Source: Psychroflexus aestuariivivens (GTDB lineage Bacteria > Bacteroidota > Bacteroidia > Flavobacteriales > Flavobacteriaceae). From it: a stretch of DNA of 64,000 nt. A model generated the notes under the pieces. It was not told where the DNA came from. It saw only the letters and a program-made list of their open reading frames with translations, and ran no database searches. Of the stretch, positions 11,214 through 63,529 are shown piece by piece. Both the position numbers and the translations under genes were made by a program. Every line of letters starts with the position of its first letter. The stretch's first letter is position 1. The DNA lies in assembly GCF_004010055.1 (NCBI RefSeq), contig NZ_RQVT01000001.1:62001-126000 (forward strand), read 5' to 3'.

Positions 11214-11229
11214 TTGTTTTAGATTATAT

Positions 11230-11257
11230 GAATCAAGATGCAAGAACCATGACTATA
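11230..11257 (+). repeat. degenerate period-7 array, left side of first S23 gene
   Basis: Four 7-base units in GA phase: GAATCAA, GATGCAA, GAACCAT, GACTATA. It lies between the acyl-CoA dehydrogenase start and the S23 gene stop, reading inward to the S23 gene, and is inverted relative to the stronger array at 11622-11670. Degenerate, so assigned mainly because the other three borders show the same phase. Confidence 0.5.
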
Positions 11258-11291
11258 ACTTAAGTCCAGATTTGAATCTTGATATTATTTT

Positions 11292-11606
11292 TTATATGTA
11301 AATAATTTTAGTTTCTAATTCTATAAATTTTTCCTCATTCAGATAATTTTGATCAAAAGCAACAATTAATTGAGTTTCTAATTCAAAAGCAGAACCTAAA
11401 CTATTTTCCAAATAAGAATTGAAATGTTTATTTGTACTTTTACTCGTTCCTTCTGAAATATTTGAAGGAATCGAAACTGAACATCTATTCATTTGAGATA
11501 CTAAACCAAATTTTTCAAAATCAGGGAAAGTCCTAGTTAAAGCATAAATTTCTTTTACTAAGTCTTTACTTTCCTGCCAGATTTTTAATTTTTTGAAGTT
11601 ATGCAT
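11292..11606 (-). CDS. four-helix-bundle protein, S23/IVP family, shortened C-terminus
   Basis: 104 residues. Family signature: LKIWQESKDLVKEIYALT, FPDFEKFGLVSQMNR, SIPSNISEG, and the GSAFELETQLI helix. S23/IVP proteins were first described as ORFs inside 23S rRNA intervening sequences and form pentameric four-helix bundles; relatives include Avd of diversity-generating retroelements. Their cellular role is unsettled. This copy ends at ETKIIYI, about 13 residues before its paralogue at 12912-13265, cutting the last helix; a small deletion is likely. It sits between fadA and the acyl-CoA dehydrogenase gene, bordered by period-7 arrays on both sides, unlike normal operon genes. Confidence 0.85.
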   Translation of the reverse strand: MHNFKKLKIWQESKDLVKEIYALTRTFPDFEKFGLVSQMNRCSVSIPSNISEGTSKSTNKHFNSYLENSLGSAFELETQLIVAFDQNYLNEEKFIELETKIIYI

Positions 11607-11621
11607 TGAATTTTCATAATT

Positions 11622-11670
11622 ATTACTCTTAATTCCTGACTCCTGACTCCTGACTCCTGACTCTTTGCTC
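11622..11670 (-). repeat. period-7 tandem array, right side of first S23 gene
   Basis: Seven consecutive units on the reverse strand: GAGCAAA, four identical GAGTCAG copies, GAATTAA and GAGTAAT. The array fills almost the whole gap between the S23 start codon (11606) and the fadA stop (11680). The exact fourfold copy (11636-11663) means it can slip in replication. Confidence 0.92.
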
Positions 11671-11679
11671 TAGTTACTA

Positions 11680-12867
11680 CTAAAACACCTCATAAATCCC
11701 AGCTGCTCCCTGTCCAGTTCCTACGCACATAGTGACCATAGAATATTTATCTTTTAGGTTTCTCTTTTTCATTTCATCAAAAATCTGAACTGAAAGTTTG
11801 GCTCCAGTACAACCTAATGGGTGACCTAAAGCAATAGCACCACCATTTACATTCAAAATATCTTGATTGATGCCTAACTCTCTAGCGACAGCCAAAGATT
11901 GAGAAGCAAAAGCTTCATTAAGTTCAATAAGTTCGATGTCATTCAATTTGAGTCCAGCTTGTTTCAATGCTTTTGGAATTGCTTTTACTGGACCAATTCC
12001 CATAATTCTCGGTTCTACACCAACAGTTGCATAACTTACCATTCTAGCTACTGGTTCAAGATTAAGTTCTTTGACCATTTCTTCGCTCATTACCATAACA
12101 AAGGCTGCGCCATCGCTCATCTGAGATGAATTTCCAGCTGTTACACTTCCACCTTCAGCAAAAACAGGTCTGAGTTTATTCAATACTTCTTCTGAAGTAT
12201 CTGCTCTTGGACCTTGATCTTGATTAACTGTATAAGTTTTTGATTCTTTTTTGTCTTTAGAATTAACAAAAACTTCTTCTACATCTATCGGTACGATTTG
12301 GTCTTGAAATCGATTTTCTTTTTGAGCTTTAATCGCTTTTTGATGAGAATTGTAAGCAAATTCATTTTGATCTTTTGCTGAAATTTCATATTGCTTTGCT
12401 ACAGCTTCTGCTGTGAGACCCATTCCCCAATAATAACTTTCGTTACCAGCTTTGGCAGCGTTATAATTTGGGACAGGTTTGTAACCTCCCATTGGAATGT
12501 AACTCATACTCTCTGCACCACCAGCAATGATGCAATTGGCCATGCCACTTTGAATTTTTGCACTCGCCATGGCGATGGTTTCTATTCCAGATGCGCAATA
12601 ACGATTGACGGTTACGCCAGGAACTTCTTCAGTTTTTAAACCCATCAGTGAAACCAATCGACCGACATTTAAGCCTTGTTCTGCTTCTGGCATGGCGTTT
12701 CCAACCATCACATCATCGATACGTGATTTGTCAAATTCGGGTAGTTGTCCCATCATATAATTGATGGTTTCCGCCGCTAAATTGTCTGGACGCTTAAACC
12801 GAAAAACACCTTTTGGAGCTTTTCCTACTGCTGTTCTGTATCCTTTTACTATGTATGCTGTTTTCAT
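11680..12867 (-). CDS. fadA: acetyl-CoA C-acyltransferase (3-ketoacyl-CoA thiolase)
   Basis: A 395-residue thiolase. The nucleophile Cys91 is in NRYCASGIETIAMA, the His is in GGAIALGHPLGCTGAK, and the proton-transfer Cys is in CVGTGQGAAG near the C-terminus; the NEAFASQ motif is present. It cleaves 3-ketoacyl-CoA with CoA to acetyl-CoA and a shortened acyl-CoA, the last step of beta-oxidation. It lies between fadJ and the acyl-CoA dehydrogenase gene, but each junction is interrupted by an S23-family gene. Sequence is complete and unremarkable for the family. Confidence 0.97.
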   Translation of the reverse strand: MKTAYIVKGYRTAVGKAPKGVFRFKRPDNLAAETINYMMGQLPEFDKSRIDDVMVGNAMPEAEQGLNVGRLVSLMGLKTEEVPGVTVNRYCASGIETIAMASAKIQSGMANCIIAGGAESMSYIPMGGYKPVPNYNAAKAGNESYYWGMGLTAEAVAKQYEISAKDQNEFAYNSHQKAIKAQKENRFQDQIVPIDVEEVFVNSKDKKESKTYTVNQDQGPRADTSEEVLNKLRPVFAEGGSVTAGNSSQMSDGAAFVMVMSEEMVKELNLEPVARMVSYATVGVEPRIMGIGPVKAIPKALKQAGLKLNDIELIELNEAFASQSLAVARELGINQDILNVNGGAIALGHPLGCTGAKLSVQIFDEMKKRNLKDKYSMVTMCVGTGQGAAGIYEVF

Positions 12868-12871
12868 ATTG

Positions 12872-12913
12872 GATTTTAGATTTTAGAACTTAGATATAAG
12901 ATTAATGATTCTT
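12872..12913 (+). repeat. period-7 tandem array, left side of second S23 gene
   Basis: Six units in GA phase: GATTTTA twice, GAACTTA, GATATAA, GATTAAT, GATTCTT. The array begins 5 bases after the fadA start codon (in + coordinates) and runs into the stop codon of the S23 gene. Its consensus GAnnTTA is the same as that of the array on the other side, in inverted orientation. Confidence 0.85.
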
Positions 12914-13265
12914 ATTTTTCTAAGCCTTGATTAAATTTATAAATCATTTTGTGTATTTCATTAATATCCTTCTCTAACTTATTGAGTTTATCGTTGCTAA
13001 TAAAATTTAAGCGATTACTAATAATAAGTTGAGTATTAAGTTCATTTAAAGATCCTTTAGAAATCGATAAAAATCTTCCAAAATCTTTGTTGCTATTCCT
13101 TCCAGCACCTTCCGCAATATTTGAAGGAACTGAAATAGCACTTCTTTTAATTTGATCTACTAAGCCATACTTTTCAGAGTTAGGAAAATCAGCAATTAGT
13201 TGGAATACGTTTTCAACTAAATCAATAGATTTCTGCCAAATTTTCAGTTCCTTATAATTATGCAT
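12912..13265 (-). CDS. four-helix-bundle protein, S23/IVP family
   Basis: 117 residues, the full family length. Motifs are LKIWQKSIDLVENVF, FPNSEKYGLVDQIKRSAI, SVPSNIAEGAGRNSNKDF, the GSLNELNTQLI helix and a last helix ending in MIYKFNQGLEK. It is a clear paralogue of the product of 11292-11606 (shared LKIWQ, EK-GLV-Q, PSNI-EG and EL-TQLI). It is placed in the fadJ-fadA junction with arrays of 7-base repeats directly at both ends. Known family members associate with rRNA intervening sequences; a function in fatty-acid metabolism is not indicated. The context suggests a small insertion module carried along in the operon. Confidence 0.9.
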   Translation of the reverse strand: MHNYKELKIWQKSIDLVENVFQLIADFPNSEKYGLVDQIKRSAISVPSNIAEGAGRNSNKDFGRFLSISKGSLNELNTQLIISNRLNFISNDKLNKLEKDINEIHKMIYKFNQGLEK

Positions 13266-13281
13266 CGCAAAAGATTTTGTC

Positions 13282-13316
13282 TAATATCTAATATCTCAAA
13301 TCTACTTTCTAATTTC
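13282..13316 (-). repeat. period-7 tandem array, right side of second S23 gene
   Basis: Five units on the reverse strand: GAAATTA, GAAAGTA, GATTTGA, and GATATTA twice, followed by partial GACAAAA. It fills the gap between the S23 start codon and fadJ and overlaps the last codons and stop of fadJ (13309-13311). Consensus GAnnTTA, reading inward to the S23 gene. Confidence 0.85.
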
Positions 13317-15714
13317 TAAGCGGTTTCCCTTTCTTAATCATGTGTTGAAGACGTTCTAGAGTTTTCTTTTCACCGCAAAGTGATAAGAAAGCTTCGCGTT
13401 CAAGATCTAAAAGATACTGTTCAGAAACATAACTGGCTTCAGATAAATCACCGCCAGACATGACGTAAGCCAATTTGTTGGCAATTTTCTGATCGTGCTC
13501 ACTGATGTAATTTCCTGCTTTCATTTGGTCTGTTCCAACCAAAAATGCACCTAAAGCTTGACGACCAAGCACTTTGATATCGTTGGTTTTTACAGGCTGA
13601 GAATATCCGTTTTCTGACATCAATTGGGCGTGTTGTTTTGCGATGGCAAGTTGTCGGTCTCGACTCACCACAACAATGTCTTTGCCGCGTTCCAAAATAT
13701 TCAAATCGTAAGCTTCATGAGCAGATTTGGCAACTTTAGCCATTCCTATAGTCAAGAAGTTTTCTCTTAATCTATTCAATTCAACATCATCTTTTTGGAA
13801 GGTTTTTGCAGCTCTACGTGTCATTTCTTTAGAACCACCGCCACCAGGAATTACGCCAACACCAAATTCAACTAAACCGATATAAGTTTCGGCGTGAGCA
13901 ACAATTTTATCGGCATGCATAGACAATTCGCAACCGCCGCCAAGTGCCAGTTGATGTGGAGCAGCAACCGTTGGAATAGAGGAGTAGCGCATTCTCATCA
14001 TTGTATCCTGAAAATATTTGATGGCGCCATTCAATTCTTCATATTCTTGTTCAACAGCGAACATGAAAATCATTCCGATATTGGCACCTACAGAAAAATT
14101 ATCGCCGGTATTCGAAATAACGACGCCATTAAAATCTTTTTCTGCAATATCCATCGCTGTGTTAATGCCGTTCAGTACATCGCCACCGATAGAATTCATT
14201 TTACTTCGGAATTCAATATTCAAAATACCGTCGCCTAAATCTTCAGCGACAAGATCTTTGTTTTTGAAAACTTCATTGCTTTCTCGGATATTATCTAAAA
14301 TGATAAAGGCATCTTGACCAGGAATTTTTTCATGGGCTGATTTGTCGATATCGTAAAAATAAGTTTTACCAGATTTAACGTGGTAGAAAGATTTTTGATC
14401 GGACTCGGATAGTTTTTTCACCCAATCTGAAATTTCAAAACCTTCGTCTTTCATCAACTGGATTCCTTTTTCTAAACCAATGGCATCCCAAATTTGAAAT
14501 GGTCCATGTTGCCAGCCAAAACCAGCTTTCATAGCATCATCGATTTTGTAAAGTGAATCTGTGATTTCTGGTATTCTGTTTTGCACATAAGCGAAAAGTG
14601 CAGCGAAATTTTTTCTGTAAAATTCACCAGCTTTATCTTTGCCTTCAATTAAAATAGGAAAACGATCTGCAACTACATCAACAGATTTTGTTTTTTCTAA
14701 AGTGTCAAATTTGGCAGATTTTTTTTCTCTGTATTCTAATGAATTTAAATCCAGTGATTTGATTTCGCTTGAACCATCATCGTTTTTAATTTTTTTATAA
14801 AAACCTTGTCCTGTTTTGCTTCCATACCATTCATTTTCCATCATAGACTCTATGAAATCTGGAAGTTTGAACAAGTTGTGACGTTCATCGTTGGGAACAT
14901 TTTCATATAAACCATTGGCTACATGAACTAAAGTGTCTAATCCAACAACATCAACTGTTCTAAAAGTTGCCGATTTTGGACGACCGATTACCGGACCGGT
15001 TAATTTGTCAACTTCTTCAATCGTCATATCCATATCTTTAACCATATGGAACAAGCTCATGATGCTAAAAATACCAACTCGATTTCCGATAAAAGCTGGG
15101 GTATCTTTGGCAACGACTGTAGTTTTTCCTAAGAATTTTTCACCATAATCATTCAAAAATTCTAAAACTTCAGTTGAAGTATCAGGACCTGGGATAATTT
15201 CCAAAAGTTTCAAATATCTCGGCGGATTGAAGAAATGCGTTCCGCAGAAATGTTTTTTGAAATCGTCACTGCGACCTTCAGTCATAAATTTAATAGGAAT
15301 ACCAGAAGTGTTGGAAGAAATCAGCGTTCCTTTTTTGCGGTGTTTTTCTAAATTTTCAAAGACTTGTTTTTTGATATCTAGTCTTTCCACAACGACTTCA
15401 ATAATCCAATCGACATCTGCAACTTTAGAAATATCATCTTCTAAATTTCCAGTTTCAATGCGTTTTGCAAAATCTTTATGATAAATCGGCGAAGGGTTAG
15501 ACTTTAATGAATTTTGTAAAGCATCATTAACAATTCGGTTTCTAACCGAAGGATCTTCCAAGGTTTTGCCTTGTTTTTTTTCTTTGTCATTAGGTTCTTT
15601 TGGAACGATGTCAAGAAGTATAACTTCTACACCTATGTTGGCAAAATGGCAAGCAATGCCACTTCCCATAATACCTGAACCAATGACTGCTACTTTTTTG
15701 ATTCTTCTTTTCAT
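13309..15714 (-). CDS. fadJ: 3-hydroxyacyl-CoA dehydrogenase/enoyl-CoA hydratase bifunctional protein
   Basis: 801 residues. The N-terminal NAD-binding dehydrogenase has GSGIMGSGIACHFANIG (12-28) and GTHFFNPPRYLKLLEI with the catalytic His; a second dehydrogenase C-domain copy follows (to about 460). The C-terminal third (about 500-800) is the hydratase with ALGGGCELSMHADKIVAH and LVEFGVGVIPGGGG. This domain order, dehydrogenase first, is opposite to E. coli FadB/FadJ and usual in Bacteroidota. It carries out hydration and oxidation of enoyl-CoA. It follows marR by 9 bases. Its last codons lie inside the start of a period-7 repeat, although the end GKPLRN looks normal. Confidence 0.95.
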   Translation of the reverse strand: MKRRIKKVAVIGSGIMGSGIACHFANIGVEVILLDIVPKEPNDKEKKQGKTLEDPSVRNRIVNDALQNSLKSNPSPIYHKDFAKRIETGNLEDDISKVADVDWIIEVVVERLDIKKQVFENLEKHRKKGTLISSNTSGIPIKFMTEGRSDDFKKHFCGTHFFNPPRYLKLLEIIPGPDTSTEVLEFLNDYGEKFLGKTTVVAKDTPAFIGNRVGIFSIMSLFHMVKDMDMTIEEVDKLTGPVIGRPKSATFRTVDVVGLDTLVHVANGLYENVPNDERHNLFKLPDFIESMMENEWYGSKTGQGFYKKIKNDDGSSEIKSLDLNSLEYREKKSAKFDTLEKTKSVDVVADRFPILIEGKDKAGEFYRKNFAALFAYVQNRIPEITDSLYKIDDAMKAGFGWQHGPFQIWDAIGLEKGIQLMKDEGFEISDWVKKLSESDQKSFYHVKSGKTYFYDIDKSAHEKIPGQDAFIILDNIRESNEVFKNKDLVAEDLGDGILNIEFRSKMNSIGGDVLNGINTAMDIAEKDFNGVVISNTGDNFSVGANIGMIFMFAVEQEYEELNGAIKYFQDTMMRMRYSSIPTVAAPHQLALGGGCELSMHADKIVAHAETYIGLVEFGVGVIPGGGGSKEMTRRAAKTFQKDDVELNRLRENFLTIGMAKVAKSAHEAYDLNILERGKDIVVVSRDRQLAIAKQHAQLMSENGYSQPVKTNDIKVLGRQALGAFLVGTDQMKAGNYISEHDQKIANKLAYVMSGGDLSEASYVSEQYLLDLEREAFLSLCGEKKTLERLQHMIKKGKPLRN

Positions 15715-63408: not shown

Positions 63409-63469
63409 AAAAAATATTTTTAAAATTTAGTCGGAAGGAATGGTCTGTATTAACAACTAAACTTGAAAT

Positions 63470-63519
63470 ACTGTTTTAGCAATTTTTAGAGGCTGCAATC
63501 AGTCAAATCCTTCCTCGAC
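63470..63519 (-). promoter_or_regulatory. SAM-II riboswitch in the metK leader
   Basis: The reverse strand matches the SAM-II core in order: P1 left arm GAGG (63516-63513), GGATTTGACTGATTGCAGCC (63510-63491), P1 right arm CCTC (63492-63489), then the conserved TTGCTAAAACAGT (63482-63470). ATTTG, TTGCAGCC and GCTAAAA are the SAM-binding consensus elements. The pseudoknot pair CTG (in GACTGATT) with CAG (at the 3' end) is preserved, though its bases differ from alphaproteobacterial copies as I recall them. P1 is only four base pairs. The leader continues about 60 bases to the start codon. Confidence 0.9.
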
Positions 63520-63521
63520 AG

Positions 63522-63529
63522 CAAATTTA
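63522..63529 (-). promoter_or_regulatory. -7 element for metK
   Basis: The reverse strand reads TAAATTTG, directly upstream of the SAM-II aptamer. The start of transcription would be near 63516, so the transcript begins almost with the riboswitch. No -33 TTG is visible. Confidence 0.55.

Follow-up and report, generated by a model that had tools for sequence, protein, structure and literature searches.

Why do two successive junctions of a fatty-acid beta-oxidation operon each hold an S23-family gene closed in by rows of short repeats? The question is raised by a 64,000-nucleotide stretch of the Psychroflexus aestuariivivens genome (RefSeq assembly GCF_004010055.1, contig NZ_RQVT01000001.1, positions 62,001 to 126,000), referred to here in its whole length as the window. 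An earlier note on this DNA had placed S23-family genes at the fadJ-fadA and fadA-acyl-CoA dehydrogenase junctions, and profile matches confirmed both. S23 gene 1 (11292-11606) matched PF05635 with an E-value of 4.2e-36 (123.8 bits) and S23 gene 2 (12912-13265) with 3.5e-42 (143.4 bits; cut-off 33.8); the TIGR02436 scores were 105.9 and 133 bits, respectively (cut-off 24). Analysis of these genes together with S23 loci from related and distant genomes revealed a recurrent architecture, in which an S23 gene lies between two repeat arrays (hereafter arms). Arrays are enriched at S23 flanks, period and unit are shared by the two arms of a locus, the gene stands in sense orientation, empty sites occur in relatives, the arrays accompany the gene and the arms are conserved. 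These results suggest an overlooked kind of genetic cassette, found again in genomes whose labels range over remote bacterial groups and include an archaeon.

Tandem Repeats Finder reported period-7 arrays at three of the four borders of the window S23 genes (11634-11663, 12872-12903 and 13280-13319); elsewhere in the 64 kb it listed only four rows of period 7, all A/T-rich with 2.1 copies. The fourth array (11230-11257) is degenerate. It was recognized by eye and missed by autocorrelation (13/24), and the equivalent border of the ortholog in Tenacibaculum larymnensis (L190) carries clear heptads. Period-7 arrays at all four borders, as claimed by the earlier note, were thus found by program at three, with the fourth resting on inspection and on the ortholog. 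Its description of the borders as inverted, period-7 and in GA phase fits real arrays but fails as a general rule, since period 8, rarely 6 or 9, and loci with direct arms only also exist. In the P. aestuariivivens genome as a whole, PF05635 gave eight matches representing seven genes (two matches are halves of one gene), and short-period arrays are visible by eye at one or both borders of all seven. On a 24-position score the upstream border reached at least 15 in 7/7 genes, as did the downstream border when periods of 4 to 12 were allowed; two downstream borders are weak, with best periods of 12 (S23 gene 1) and 10 (another S23 gene).

Two sets of loci were used for the wider survey. The genus set holds 80 S23 entries, all within retrieved loci, from 23 genomes belonging to the genus and order of P. 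aestuariivivens, and includes the split halves of two S23 genes. The distant set holds the best 80 of at least 568 confirmed S23 loci from a wide genome collection; 79 were usable and one was without a usable flank. By record titles the distant set is mostly Bacteroidota, the other labels being Chloroflexi, Planctomycetota, Betaproteobacteria, Nitrospirales, Clostridia, candidate phyla and one Methanophagales archaeon. These other records are metagenome-assembled genomes. So, by record title, are all 14 genomes outside Bacteroidota that were searched for S23, and single contigs may be mis-binned; each of the 14 gave at least one S23 match and twelve gave two or more. Thirty extra loci were taken from genomes labelled outside Bacteroidota, about half of them repeating distant-set loci and one (L239) without a profile match.

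With permutations of each flank as the null and periods of 6 to 9, arrays at p<=0.01 were found upstream of 39/80 and downstream of 30/80 genus S23 entries (69/160 flanks; at least one side in 48/80). The corresponding numbers for the distant set were 34/79 upstream and 49/79 downstream (83/158 flanks; at least one side in 56/79). Ordinary intergenic gaps reached the same threshold in 9/268 cases, namely 6/182 across 400 kb of one related genome and 3/86 in 249 kb of the P. aestuariivivens genome with S23 regions excluded. S23 flanks thus exceed ordinary gaps by more than tenfold at p<=0.01, against a baseline from two genomes of the genus only, the distant phyla having no random baseline of their own.

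Gaps close to S23 genes showed a raised rate (16/128 genus, 23/99 distant, p<=0.01). Among the strongest distant gap hits, 18 of 19 were inspected (15 of 16 loci): another S23 gene stands beside three of them, while the other 15 are S23-free arrays. Some of the 13 strongest genus gap hits lie in loci with several S23 genes. The 15 of 18 inspected control gaps with arrays and no S23 gene indicate that arrays are not exclusive to S23 flanks; these arrays may be scars. A scan of the retrieved loci found an inverted pair in 18/34 S23-less co-directional gaps with arrays and none in 16/34; some of the 18 are terminator-like hairpins, and a remnant of S23 and an S23 gene in two parts are also among them. 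Five S23-less operon junctions (Table 1) keep both complementary arms around a short loop, with the AG arm first in sense, and are possibly deletion scars or miniature forms.

Comparison of the two arms of each locus revealed a common period. Where both flanks have an array, the period is equal in 34/38 genus loci (15.5 expected) and 38/40 distant loci (27.2 expected), and in 15/16 loci from genomes labelled outside Bacteroidota, about half of which are already in the distant set. Array periods are mostly 7, often 8 and rarely 6 or 9, with a median of five to six units per array. The repeat unit is common to both arms of a locus and differs between loci. The arms are mostly inverted: an inverted match better than that with the arms of other loci was found in 40/80 genus and 57/79 distant loci, and none of 10000 permutations reached the arm-match totals, inverted or direct, in either set. 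Upstream and downstream arm lengths are correlated in the distant set (rho 0.61, n=38), with a non-significant rho of 0.28 (n=34) in the genus set. For period-7 arrays of at least four units, counted with no composition control, AG is conserved upstream in 24/38 distant and 16/31 genus arrays, and CT downstream in 33/48 distant and only 8/28 genus arrays; the commonest distant-set core is AG (or GT) upstream and CT downstream. A position-specific core is weakly indicated, with 3.2-3.4 invariant phases versus 2.3-2.8 under a redistribution null, a comparison biased by the array-extension rule.

The arms are also conserved. Among five orthologs (five species) of the cassette around S23 gene 2, identity is 92.4% in the 3' arm and 74.6% in the 5' arm, versus 64.4% at third codon positions of S23 and 46.8% in the spacer next to it. 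The arms persist even in G032, an ortholog of this group in which S23 core residues are lost. Array identity exceeded third-codon-position identity in 13/16 upstream and 9/10 downstream ortholog comparisons in which an array was scored, these being drawn from 24 chosen pairs of 44 same-site pairs, some sharing a member. Judged from these alignments, in which periodic sequences align generously, the arms outlast neutral sites. Covariation in the five orthologs was uninformative, since the arm pairs are mostly invariant.

Consistent with a place inside transcripts, S23 shares its strand with both flanking genes in 69 of the 77 genus entries flanked on each side and opposes both in 5/77, while 188/302 random gene triplets are co-directional. 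The distant set with two neighbours gave 62/72 and 1/72. These same-strand counts indicate that S23 sits in sense inside transcripts.

The earlier note had taken the S23 gene and its arrays for an insertion module and proposed a search of related fad junctions for an empty site, and both points were borne out. Junction classes were assigned by reading printed sequences. Among 21 readable thiolase-dehydrogenase junctions in the genus, six are clean empty sites of 10-21 bp without arrays, so that the junction is not always occupied. Nine carry S23, with three kinds of N-terminus and, in one gene (G004), internal stops; the remaining six comprise one gutted S23 gene between arrays, two with arrays alone and three with other sequence. 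The 21 readable FadJ-thiolase junctions comprise eight with S23, ten with a different element, two short ones (30 and 46 bp) and one unresolved. The element of these ten genomes (L098-L101, L103, L107, L110, L113, L115 and L117) is 117-139 bp long and has G/C-rich hairpin-like ends.

Arrays were also compared across 147 S23 proteins without internal stops. Over all 10731 pairs, array similarity and S23 identity gave a Spearman coefficient of -0.002. The mean upstream array score was 30 and 40 in the two bins from 70% identity and 8.6-8.8 below 50%; similarity jumps above about 60-70% identity, where most pairs share a site. In 14 pairs S23 identity was 70% or more and no homology was found between the neighbours; ten of these had an upstream array score of at least 14, versus 3% of pairs at 40-50% identity. 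Similar arrays in close pairs at non-homologous sites indicate that the arrays belong to the module and travel with it.

Table 1. Features of the fad operon and its S23 cassettes in the window, with S23-less junctions of other loci (positions prefixed by locus)
Feature	Position	Strand	Basis
FadJ/FadB-type 3-hydroxyacyl-CoA dehydrogenase/enoyl-CoA hydratase gene, upstream neighbour	13309..15714	-	open reading frame and profile matches
5' arm of cassette 2 (transcript sense), TTAGATA-like heptads, starting at stop codon of upstream gene	13280..13319	-	sequence and Tandem Repeats Finder
S23 gene 2 (PF05635/TIGR02436), FadJ/FadB-type gene-thiolase junction	12912..13265	-	profile matches
3' arm of cassette 2, sense TCTAAAA-like heptads	12872..12913	-	sequence and Tandem Repeats Finder
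Acetyl-CoA C-acyltransferase (FadA-like thiolase) gene, middle gene	11680..12867	-	open reading frame and profile matches
5' arm of cassette 1 (transcript sense), heptads (GAGTCAG)n	11622..11673	-	sequence and Tandem Repeats Finder
S23 gene 1 (PF05635/TIGR02436), thiolase-acyl-CoA dehydrogenase junction, C-terminus shortened by in-frame TAA	11292..11606	-	profile matches; ortholog L190
3' arm of cassette 1, decayed heptads, sense TTGATTC-like	11230..11257	-	by eye; weak autocorrelation (13/24); L190 border
Acyl-CoA dehydrogenase gene, downstream neighbour	9408 to about 11213	-	open reading frame and profile matches
S23-less two-arm junctions	L163:1055-1225, L155:4095-4280, L190:1195-1290, L146:4188-4339, L198:1730-1822		

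Our analysis tentatively favours, with somewhat less than even confidence, a reading in which the S23 gene is the centre of a cassette in mRNA that resembles an intervening sequence and whose arms pair in any register. This compact unit, an S23 gene with an arm on either side, placed in sense within the transcript of several genes, would be the mRNA counterpart of the S23-encoding intervening sequences of 23S rRNA. Each arm is built of about five or six near-identical units of 6-9 nt, usually 7, with a locus-specific unit present in both arms, most often AG-type upstream and complementary CT-type downstream. The arms may pair in the mRNA as a register-tolerant double-stranded stem, and RNase III or another processing step could free the S23 message and separate the flanking cistrons. 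With the message released and the cistrons separated, an operon could harbour the cassette between its genes without much harm; as one unit is as good as another, loss or gain of one would leave the stem intact. The S23-less junctions L163, L155 and L190, which keep both complementary arms, were counted in favour of pairing.

This reading is favoured by the precedent of Coxiella burnetii. The available part of PMC4990558 describes a 23S rRNA intervening sequence with tandem GACAGAT heptamers upstream of its S23 gene, a 28-bp terminal stem and RNase III cutting at the first heptamer, the unit containing AG as do most period-7 upstream arrays of the distant set. In the Coxiella element, and by prediction in the window cassettes, the S23 open reading frame lies in a loop between complementary ends; heptamers stand upstream in both, and as with S23 cassettes such intervening sequences are present at some sites and absent at others. 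Unlike them, the cassettes described here lie in junctions of protein-gene operons, both of their arms are arrays, and arms can be direct or of period 8. The window S23 genes stand between fad genes and not inside a 23S rRNA gene, and none of five 23S motifs was found in the 80 distant loci.

The earlier note had suggested that the borders act as an RNA stem isolating the insert, and a stem is possible, since minimum free energy folds pair the arms of both window cassettes. The z-scores are modest (-1.64 and -2.36). Several observations weigh against pairing as the function of the arms. Shuffled sequences folded as well as the window cassettes in 6 and 1 of 100 cases, so that the real folds are only modestly better. 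No excess of G-U over A-C was found in sense-strand stems (87 versus 135 and 96 versus 131), nor at the strictest setting (71 versus 97 and 63 versus 74); a run with too loose an alignment, in which 19/79 and 5/80 loci passed, gave 58 versus 61 and 12 versus 18. Duplexes are about as stable in antisense (-62.4) as in sense (-61.4), and once the common consensus is allowed for, the units of one arm do not mirror the order of those in the other (combined z -1.29 for the genus, n=17, and +1.50 for the distant set, n=30). A direct arm match better than with other loci's arms was found in 21/80 genus and 15/79 distant loci, the arms being direct only in 13/80 and 3/79; 27/80 and 19/79 loci have neither an inverted nor a direct match. 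Some direct-oriented arms hardly pair (L025, -12; L029, -15 kcal/mol). S23 genes without array borders exist as well, neither flank reaching p<=0.05 at 14/80 genus and 10/79 distant loci. A base-by-base RNA stem received no support from the G-U versus A-C test or from unit-order shuffling. Given the lack of a G-U excess and the unmirrored unit order, the idea that the S23 protein reads the repeats must be taken seriously as a rival, and there is room for a process at the DNA level.

Under that rival, which we regard as possible though on balance unlikely, the arrays are cognate multi-copy binding sites for an S23 pentamer, each subunit contacting one AG-core unit as RNA or DNA, and serve autoregulation or movement of the cassette. 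It would account for a period and unit common to both arms, for loci in which the unit is direct instead of inverted, for the median of five to six units and for the recurrent AG/CT core of the distant set with its other phases variable, the core counts having no composition control. The solved relatives 2gsc and 2rld have five chains each, the 2gsc protein being described as five four-helix bundles in a title cited in the accessible part of PMC10053308. That part also states the homology of PF05635 to Avd of diversity-generating retroelements, a likeness seen here through PHROG 3206; as an identification, Avd fell below the cut-off for both window S23 proteins (NF033474, 22.7 and 32.8 bits versus 80). 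Against binding, array similarity tracks S23 identity only above about 60-70%, a pattern for which common descent is explanation enough, the number of copies is not sharply centred on five, the CT core is found in only 8/28 genus downstream arrays, and G032 keeps its arms although the core residues of its putative binding protein are lost. A reading that joins binding to pairing is doubtful in our estimate: all transcript-embedded S23 cassettes of bacteria and archaea would form one class, with the rRNA intervening sequence a special case, and each unit array would be read by its own pentameric S23, about one unit per subunit, by a TRAP-like logic. Binding would then compete with arm pairing and control processing and expression of the host operon.

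It seems quite improbable that the arrays have no function and arose through replication slippage and fold-back copying across the roughly 350 bp that part two sites, S23 genes merely tolerating them. Such an origin would suit the variable units, the occurrence of all periods from 6 to 9, the S23-less arrays at operon junctions near S23 loci (15/18 inspected control hits) and arrays even inside a coding gene (L081:6524-7900), and heptads are the most abundant 5-11 nt repeats in most genomes according to a study quoted in the accessible part of PMC4679880. It does not suit the enrichment at S23 flanks (69/160 and 83/158 versus 9/268 ordinary gaps), the recurrence of arrays under the labels of many phyla, where the distant set mostly shows AG on the upstream and CT on the downstream side, or arms more conserved than third codon positions. 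We consider it highly unlikely that the arrays mark the ends of a DNA element still being mobilized by a trans-acting transposase or reverse transcriptase, as might be read from the empty sites, the several kinds of S23 gene at one junction, the arrays accompanying the gene and two adjacent reverse-transcriptase matches elsewhere in the genome (G000 contig 4, 89947-91925). Those matches lie on contig C4 and the window on C43, with no link to S23; this is unlike Avd systems, although template and variable repeats (TR and VR) were not searched for. The earlier note's possible mobility was not upheld as recent movement, since an ortholog of S23 gene 1 occupies the corresponding junction in a different genus (L190 of T. 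larymnensis; 78% identity, neighbours 73-80%), and five other aligned S23 genes of the P. aestuariivivens genome are only 36-47% identical to S23 gene 2. Recent mobility of the window copies was rejected because of that ortholog. Nor could the heptad borders be maintained as fixed, transposon-like ends: a transposon with fixed terminal repeats was rejected, despite the empty sites, because the unit and even the period differ between loci. From these comparisons the S23 module looks old and slow rather than actively jumping.

In the literature searched, mostly without subscription papers, a description of an operon S23 cassette with two repeat arms was not found, and heptamers next to S23 were reported only in PMC4990558, for the rRNA case. 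According to the available text of PMC4679880, TAACTGA heptamer direct repeats occur in Beggiatoaceae, Cyanobacteria and some Bacteroidetes. They share intergenic heptad arrays with the S23 cassettes and differ in having one fixed unit, which is direct and precedes many genes; the main text of that paper never uses the terms S23, intervening or helix bundle. The accessible portion of PMC5524665 mentions a four helix bundle gene between guanylate kinase and nicotinate-nucleotide adenylyltransferase, and those of PMC8700078 and PMC5041132 hold no statement on repeats beside S23. S23 proteins, known since the rRNA intervening sequences were described, have no known function according to the available part of the Coxiella paper (PMC4990558). 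The arms now offer a concrete candidate ligand, and the cassettes a testable candidate role in mRNA processing. The rRNA intervening sequences would thereby be linked with the cassettes of protein-gene operons, a far more numerous group, and should the arms insulate cistrons, the cassettes will have to enter models of operon expression in Bacteroidota.

Some further observations concern individual S23 genes. The in-frame TAA of S23 gene 1 stands about 14 codons ahead of the end of its ortholog. A GIY-YIG endonuclease open reading frame lies inside S23 genes of four genomes (L081:1054-1340 on contig 27 of the P. aestuariivivens genome, L040:1670-1945, L263 and L265), the S23 genes carrying it being clearly different in sequence. 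In L262, L264 and L265 the S23 profile is broken at 45/48 in the NIA-EG core, with insert ends CCTGTGAAAT...ATTTCACAGG. L263 differs: its profile picks up again at 48, but the break on the upstream side is indistinct, and ends of the CCTGTGAAAT...ATTTCACAGG type were not found. Of the seven genus matches to this frame with at least 65% identity, four lie within an S23 gene. The frame looks like a homing element targeting S23 genes. Just downstream of an S23 cassette, an aminotransferase-like gene (named by eye; L081:6524-7900) holds in-frame heptad arrays of the same AGCCAAC unit as the cassette, which give SQQPTANSQ-like inserts in the protein.

A defence function of the S23 cassettes was rejected, as PADLOC gave no match. 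The Rfam scan of the window at gathering thresholds likewise gave nothing at the S23 cassettes; its sole match was a SAM-II riboswitch at 63466-63522 on the minus strand (60.8 bits).

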